Shown: positions 26,721-27,684 of the stretch, in pieces
How positions within the stretch are numbered: position 1 is the stretch's first letter
How the letters are laid out: the number at the start of each line of letters is the position of its first letter
NCBI GenBank assembly: GCA_026400845.1
Contig: JAPLOH010000110.1
Coordinates: 1-64,000, forward strand
Reading direction: 5' to 3'
Source of the DNA: Alphaproteobacteria bacterium
GTDB lineage: Bacteria; Pseudomonadota; Alphaproteobacteria; Acetobacterales; Acetobacteraceae
Length of the DNA stretch: 64,000 nt
The notes under the pieces: model-generated
What the model was told of the DNA's origin: nothing
Database searches by the model: none
What the model saw: only the letters and a program-made list of their open reading frames with translations
Position numbers and translations under genes: made by a program

Positions 26721-26823
26721 TCGGCCGCCGCAGCGTGTTACCGCGCGTCGGAAGATTTTACACACGGGCTTTTGCGTAGCCGTGTTCCGCGGCGAAACAG
26801 GCGGGTTTCCTGAGTCTTCGCCT

Positions 26824-26840
26824 TTGGCACGCGGATTGCA
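26824..26840 (+). promoter_or_regulatory. putative sigma-54 (-24/-12) promoter of the PEP-CTERM gene
   Basis: TTGGCACGCGGATTGCA matches TGGCACG-N4-TTGC(A/T) exactly, about 90 bp upstream of the PEP-CTERM start codon. Confidence 0.75.
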
Positions 26841-26928
26841 TTTATGTTGGCAGGGACGATCTCAACGCGGTCGTCGACAGATGAACATTGGTGAGTGGCT
26901 TCAAATGGCCGTTCGAAGGATAGTTACG

Positions 26929-27630
26929 ATGATCCAGTTTCGCGCACTGAAGACGATGGCGATGGCTCTGGCAGCCGTAGCGCTCCTTGGCGGCCCGGCC
27001 GCCGCGGATAGCGTTACCTACAACCTCGATCAGGATGCCTGCACCAACAGCTGCGGCGTCAGCCAGGCGTTGACCGGCGGTACCATCACCCTCACCGAAG
27101 TGACCGCCTTCCAGGTTGACGTCATCGTCACCCTCGCCCAGGTCGTGAAGTTCGTCAACACCGGTGCCGGCGACGCGCTCGCCTTCAACATGACGCCCGG
27201 CCTGAGCATCCAGCTCGGCTCGGAGTATTCGAGCACCACTGGCCCCTACAGCTGGGCCAGCACCTCGGTCTTCGTCACTGACTCGACGCCCAAGGGCTAC
27301 CAGAACGGCGGCTACGGTTATGGCGTCGACTACACGGCCGGCAGTGGCGCGAGCCAGGCGGTCGGCGGTGCGCTCAAGGTGAGCGTGATTTCGACGACGG
27401 CGATCTCGATCGCCAACTTCGTCGCCAACTCGATCGGCATCCTCTTCTCCGTCGACGTCATCGGCACCACCCCGAACTACACCGGCAACACCGGCAATAT
27501 CGGCGCAAAGGCATCCTCGCTGGTACCCGGCGGTGGCGGCGGCACGACCGCCGTGCCGGAGCCGATGTCGATGCTCCTGTTCGGCCCGGCCGCATTCGGT
27601 CTCGCCGCCCTGCGCCGCCGCCGTCGCTGA
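26929..27630 (+). CDS. PEP-CTERM sorting-domain secreted protein
   Basis: Signal peptide (TMAMALAAVALLGGPAAADS); C-terminal VPEPMSMLLFGPAAFGLAALRRRRR; AAGGA RBS 5' of ATG 26929 (in-frame alternative ATG 26881). Confidence 0.9.
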   Translation: MIQFRALKTMAMALAAVALLGGPAAADSVTYNLDQDACTNSCGVSQALTGGTITLTEVTAFQVDVIVTLAQVVKFVNTGAGDALAFNMTPGLSIQLGSEYSSTTGPYSWASTSVFVTDSTPKGYQNGGYGYGVDYTAGSGASQAVGGALKVSVISTTAISIANFVANSIGILFSVDVIGTTPNYTGNTGNIGAKASSLVPGGGGGTTAVPEPMSMLLFGPAAFGLAALRRRRR

Positions 27631-27650
27631 GACGACGGGCCTCGCACAAA

Positions 27651-27684
27651 AACGCCGCCGGAGCGCTGCTTCGGCGGCGTTTTG
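27651..27684 (+). terminator. Rho-independent terminator
   Basis: AACGCCGCCG...CGGCGGCGTTTT hairpin with short T run just after the PEP-CTERM stop. Confidence 0.8.

Follow-up and report, generated by a model that had tools for sequence, protein, structure and literature searches.

A predicted PEP-CTERM box with helically phased spacing among relatives, upstream of a lone surface-protein gene in Acetobacteraceae

A single gene for a PEP-CTERM surface protein, found within a 64,000-nucleotide stretch (the window) of an alphaproteobacterial draft assembly of the Acetobacteraceae (GCA_026400845.1, contig JAPLOH010000110.1), is a predicted member of a set of at least five co-regulated PEP-CTERM surface-protein genes in the same genome. 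Its promoter arrangement has been described before, as the “motif 1 + sigma-54 motif 2” or PEP-CTERM box (Haft et al., 2006; PMC1569441). The gene probably belongs to a regulon driven by PrsR and RpoN, with the corresponding locus located on a RepA/ParA replicon that is missing from the assembly. Support comes from the cis-elements and their conservation, the five-gene regulon, an RpoN encoded in the genome, and the tendency of PrsR to occur in relatives that have the motif. The features of the region are collected in Table 1.

Table 1. Predicted elements around the PEP-CTERM gene (positions in the window)
Feature	Position	Strand	Evidence
CGTGTT repeats and ACACGG/CCGTGT pair of the initial annotation	26734..26791	+	Present; judged non-functional (unconserved, not above chance)
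Putative activator (enhancer-binding protein) site, PEP-CTERM box motif 1, GTCGGAAGATTTTACA	26747..26762	+	Ortholog conservation, genome-wide pairing
Sigma-54 -24/-12 promoter TGGCACGCGGATTGCA	26825..26840	+	Exact consensus; GG 26826-26827, GC 26838-26839
Predicted transcription start	26850..26852	+	About 12 nt after the -12 GC; inference from -24/-12 geometry
Ribosome-binding site AAGGA	26916..26920	+	Sequence; 8 nt before ATG 26929
PEP-CTERM surface protein, 233 aa, single-gene unit	26929..27630	+	TIGR02595 over cut-off; ortholog alignment from ATG
Intrinsic terminator AAAACGCCGCCG ... CGGCGGCGTTTT	27649..27683	+	Sequence

The initial annotation, whose quoted sequences were all found at the coordinates it gave, had assigned the gene a sigma-54 promoter of exact consensus. 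Taken alone, such a match is weak evidence for a promoter, since TGGCACG-N4-TTGC occurs exactly at eight sites in the 5.4-Mb genome, several of the others falling inside long open frames, and only two of the eight (that of the window and one on contig C355) carry the upstream motif. One exact site without motif 1 (G000:C260:12993-13007) follows an NtrC-type regulator gene at a distance of about 460 nt, and the opposite strand there carries a long open frame. Within the window, TGGCACGCGGATTGCA is the sole sigma-54 match even when one mismatch is allowed (0.61 expected). The site becomes convincing because it is conserved in orthologs and paired with the upstream motif, which bears out the assignment of a genuine sigma-54 promoter. 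Two orthologs were compared, one from a sister species (L056/L062; uncultured Rhodospirillales MAG, CAIPLM010000006.1; protein 72-74% identical from ATG 26929 onward) and another from a different genus of the same family (L063; 47-53% identical). Their -24/-12 elements, TGGCACGGAGTTTGCG and AGGCACGATAGTTGCA, occur at the same distance as in the window, approximately 102-105 nt ahead of the start of the protein alignment. A chance match, with the gene transcribed from another promoter, might be suspected from the eight exact sites, most of which lack the motif, but position and spacing are kept in both orthologs and in four paralogous promoters, and no sigma-70-like site was found in the promoter region, which makes such a coincidence very improbable.

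The putative activator binding site is GTCGGAAnnTTTTACA/GTCGGAAGATTTTACA, not CGTGTT. The CGTGTT repeats had been proposed as the activator site, and the region does contain two near-copies along with one 6-nt inverted pair; the first reading overlooked GTCGGAAGATTTTACA, at the position where an activator would bind. The second CGTGTT-type copy has a one-base deletion, and for the upstream copy, CGTGTTNCCGCG, about four matches with one mismatch are expected by chance in the window and one was found. Neither copy was found in the two orthologs, and the activator position is taken by a different, conserved motif. CGTGTT was thus rejected for its lack of conservation and chance-level count, and hardly any likelihood is left to it. 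GTCGGAAGATTTTACA, by comparison, was not matched in any of 100 shuffled versions of the window and is conserved upstream of both orthologs. Alignment of the three intergenic regions gave two common blocks, GTCGGA..TTTTAC and GGCACG....TTGC, outside of which the region has diverged. The motif is separated from the -24/-12 element by a 62-nt spacer (78 nt start to start, the modal distance), and it fits the published description of motif 1, 17 nt ending in TTTACA (here 26746-26762) (PMC1569441).

In that work, the 17-nt motif, a spacer averaging 62.8 nt (range 32-92 nt), the sigma-54 motif and a mean of 71 nt to the start codon were described upstream of 99 of 167 proteobacterial PEP-CTERM genes, usually single-gene units, and PrsR was proposed as the activator (Haft et al., 2006). 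The window shares with this description the TTTACA-ending motif, the spacer, the -24/-12 element, the single-gene PEP-CTERM unit and an RpoN encoded in the genome, but differs in that PrsK, PrsR and exosortase were not found in the assembly.

A search of the whole genome for motif 1, allowing two mismatches, yielded seven sites. Five of them have a -24/-12 element at a start-to-start distance of 66-78 nt, with a PEP-CTERM open reading frame after it; these are the window locus and those on contigs C56, C261, C67 and C355, of which the C67 and C355 loci are truncated at contig ends. No -24/-12 element with a PEP-CTERM open reading frame was found at the remaining two. The view that the gene is one unit of a PEP-CTERM regulon is upheld by these five promoters. 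The motif pair is absent from at least six further PEP-CTERM hits (L032, L033, L034, L036, L037 and L038 over the cut-off, and L039 below it); therefore not all PEP-CTERM genes of this genome belong to the regulon.

The spacing between motif and promoter was analyzed with motif 1 sites from 22 related genomes (130 distinct sites). A good downstream -24/-12 element accompanied 81 of the 130 sites, whereas the upstream control gave 5 of 129. A PEP-CTERM open reading frame follows 64 of the 81 pairs. Start-to-start distances cluster at 58, 66-69, 75-80, 88-91 and 97-100 nt, the ranges between being empty, and a few distances exceed 125 nt; 10 genomes have the 67-nt class and 18 the 78-nt class. 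When the main peak was excluded, the side peaks gave a best period of 10.4 bp (R=0.79), in phase with the main peak, and none of 5000 random sets was as strong. Phasing held with each offset counted once per genome (p<0.001 at score thresholds of 13.0, 13.5 and 14.5; p = 0.03 at the strictest threshold of 15.5, with only 10 values), although these p-values are rough, given the uniform random model, the approximate sigma-54 weights and possible shared descent within genomes. Dependence on the helix face is expected for sigma-54 activators in general, and the steps in spacing correspond to one turn of DNA, as would be expected if the activator always works from the same side of the helix. A literature search on PEP-CTERM, helical and enhancer gave only the 2006 paper, where phasing is unmentioned; no earlier report of helical phasing in the PEP-CTERM box was found. 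PrsR was present in 14 of 21 motif-rich genomes of the family versus 10 of 69 others (Fisher p=1e-5).

The encoded protein has a signal peptide at about residues 1-26 and ends in the tail VPEPMSMLLFGPAAFGLAALRRRRR. It scored 18.6 bits with TIGR02595, above the cut-off of 16, and 15.9 with Pfam PF07589, below the cut-off of 20.7; the PEP-CTERM tail is real. The description of a lone signal-peptide/PEP-CTERM gene with its own terminator thus stands, and from its class the protein is probably exported, to act at the surface or in the matrix. A structure predicted from two sequences reached a mean pLDDT of 38. A similar case is pepA of Aquincola tertiaricarbonis, a PEP-CTERM gene with rpoN1-dependent transcription from a mapped -24/-12 promoter (PMC9850573), with which the window gene shares an RpoN-type promoter, the lone PEP-CTERM gene and the terminator. 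The full-length match to floc_PepA (NF033554) is weak (21 bits, far under the 80-bit cut-off) and, unlike pepA, the gene is not adjacent to prsT; therefore the protein is not PepA.

Regarding the trans-acting components, the initial annotation took a genome without exosortase, PrsR or RpoN as grounds for refutation. RpoN is indeed encoded, on contig C227 (391 bits, cut-off 277), whereas searches of the assembly returned no exosortase (PF09721, E<=0.1), no PrsK or PrsR over the cut-off, and no XrtA-locus ATPase, XrtA chain-length protein or RepA. All the locus genes tested, together with RepA, are thus missing from an assembly that is 98% complete. The assembly still encodes six full or partial NtrC-type enhancer-binding proteins. 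The best enhancer-binding proteins are only 39-46% identical to the PrsR of sister species, compared with 82-84% identity among PrsR proteins of the genus. A fragment at a contig end (C70) was considered as a truncated PrsR and discarded, since it shares 45% identity with PrsR of the sister species. On one contig (G000:C103:2347-7128), two response regulators of the NtrC type lie near each other, both with a histidine kinase as neighbor.

These absences seem better read as a missing replicon than as a refutation, given that exosortase is present in all four other genomes of the genus and PrsR in three of them. The fourth (G002) has exosortase and no PrsK, PrsR or motif 1; its locus (G002:C2; L257, L258) is a natural case of a sorting system without regulation by motif 1 and PrsK/PrsR. 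The G001 locus has genes for exosortase A, FemAB, XrtA chain-length and export proteins, PrsK and PrsR, as well as for an EpsB_2-type transferase that scored slightly below its cut-off; PrsT begins there too but is truncated by the contig end. A plasmid-type RepA (PF04796) and ParA adjoin the exosortase locus in G001, G003 and G070, the last from a different genus, in which the counterpart of the window gene is on another contig, of 827 kb. The RepA beside the G001 locus (890 plasmid records match it) is 94-95% identical across the three genomes (L126:7737-9511), and is thus more conserved than the PEP-CTERM protein. The G001 exosortase gave only distant matches to known plasmids, in other genera. 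Plasmid-type location is not general among relatives, since seven others had no matching RepA within about 20 kb of the locus, as tested with the G001-type RepA.

The missing exosortase, PrsK, PrsR and RepA are most likely due to a replicon that was lost or left unbinned, because the locus adjoins RepA/ParA in three relatives and RepA is missing here too; loss of the replicon, whether from the bin or from the cell, would explain all these absences at once. True loss of the locus, with the five promoters as relics or under another NtrC-type activator and the proteins remaining membrane-anchored, is a considerably less probable explanation. It would account for the absence of the whole locus and RepA from a nearly complete assembly and is compatible with the six remaining enhancer-binding proteins; the regulon without the locus is also found in three other genomes (G008, G018 and G048), one of them a single contig. 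Against it, motif 1 and the -24/-12 element are intact at modal spacing in an otherwise drifting region, which argues for current use, no remaining activator closely resembles PrsR, exosortase occurs throughout the sister species, and replicons are readily lost in metagenome binning. The single 3.37-Mb contig of G048 (L132-L137, L206, L207) contains about ten motif 1 sites, most of them before PEP-CTERM genes, and no exosortase, PrsR or other XrtA-locus gene was found on it.

In the preferred explanation, with its locus on a RepA/ParA replicon absent from the draft, PrsK would signal to the NtrC-type PrsR, which would be phosphorylated and bind GTCGGAAnnTTTTACA, some 62 bp ahead of the -24/-12 element, on the correct helix face. 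Bound PrsR would then drive RpoN-RNA polymerase to transcribe a single exported protein, whose PEP-CTERM tail would be processed by an XrtA-type exosortase and which might participate in matrix or floc formation. A plasmid-borne EpsH locus is known in Desulfovibrio vulgaris (PMC1569441). The locus of the relatives is similar in that an exosortase/exopolysaccharide locus is located on a plasmid and at least one PEP-CTERM target on the chromosome, but in these Alphaproteobacteria the replicon is of the RepA/ParA type and carries PrsK and PrsR as well. More tentatively, and with odds rather against it, the regulon might be split, chromosomal PEP-CTERM targets answering to PrsK/PrsR and exosortase on the replicon, with the organism of the window representing the form without it.

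These findings confirm and sharpen, in a new lineage, the PEP-CTERM box prediction of 2006, and give the activator site a testable form, GTCGGAAnnTTTTACA. Helically phased spacing, unstated in the original paper, makes the fixed helix face of site and promoter visible from sequence alone. In some relatives the genes for sorting and regulation seem to be carried by a plasmid-type replicon, which would account for the several draft genomes that apparently combine PEP-CTERM proteins with a lack of exosortase. If the split between chromosome and replicon is true, gain or loss of the replicon would switch a whole set of matrix proteins on or off.
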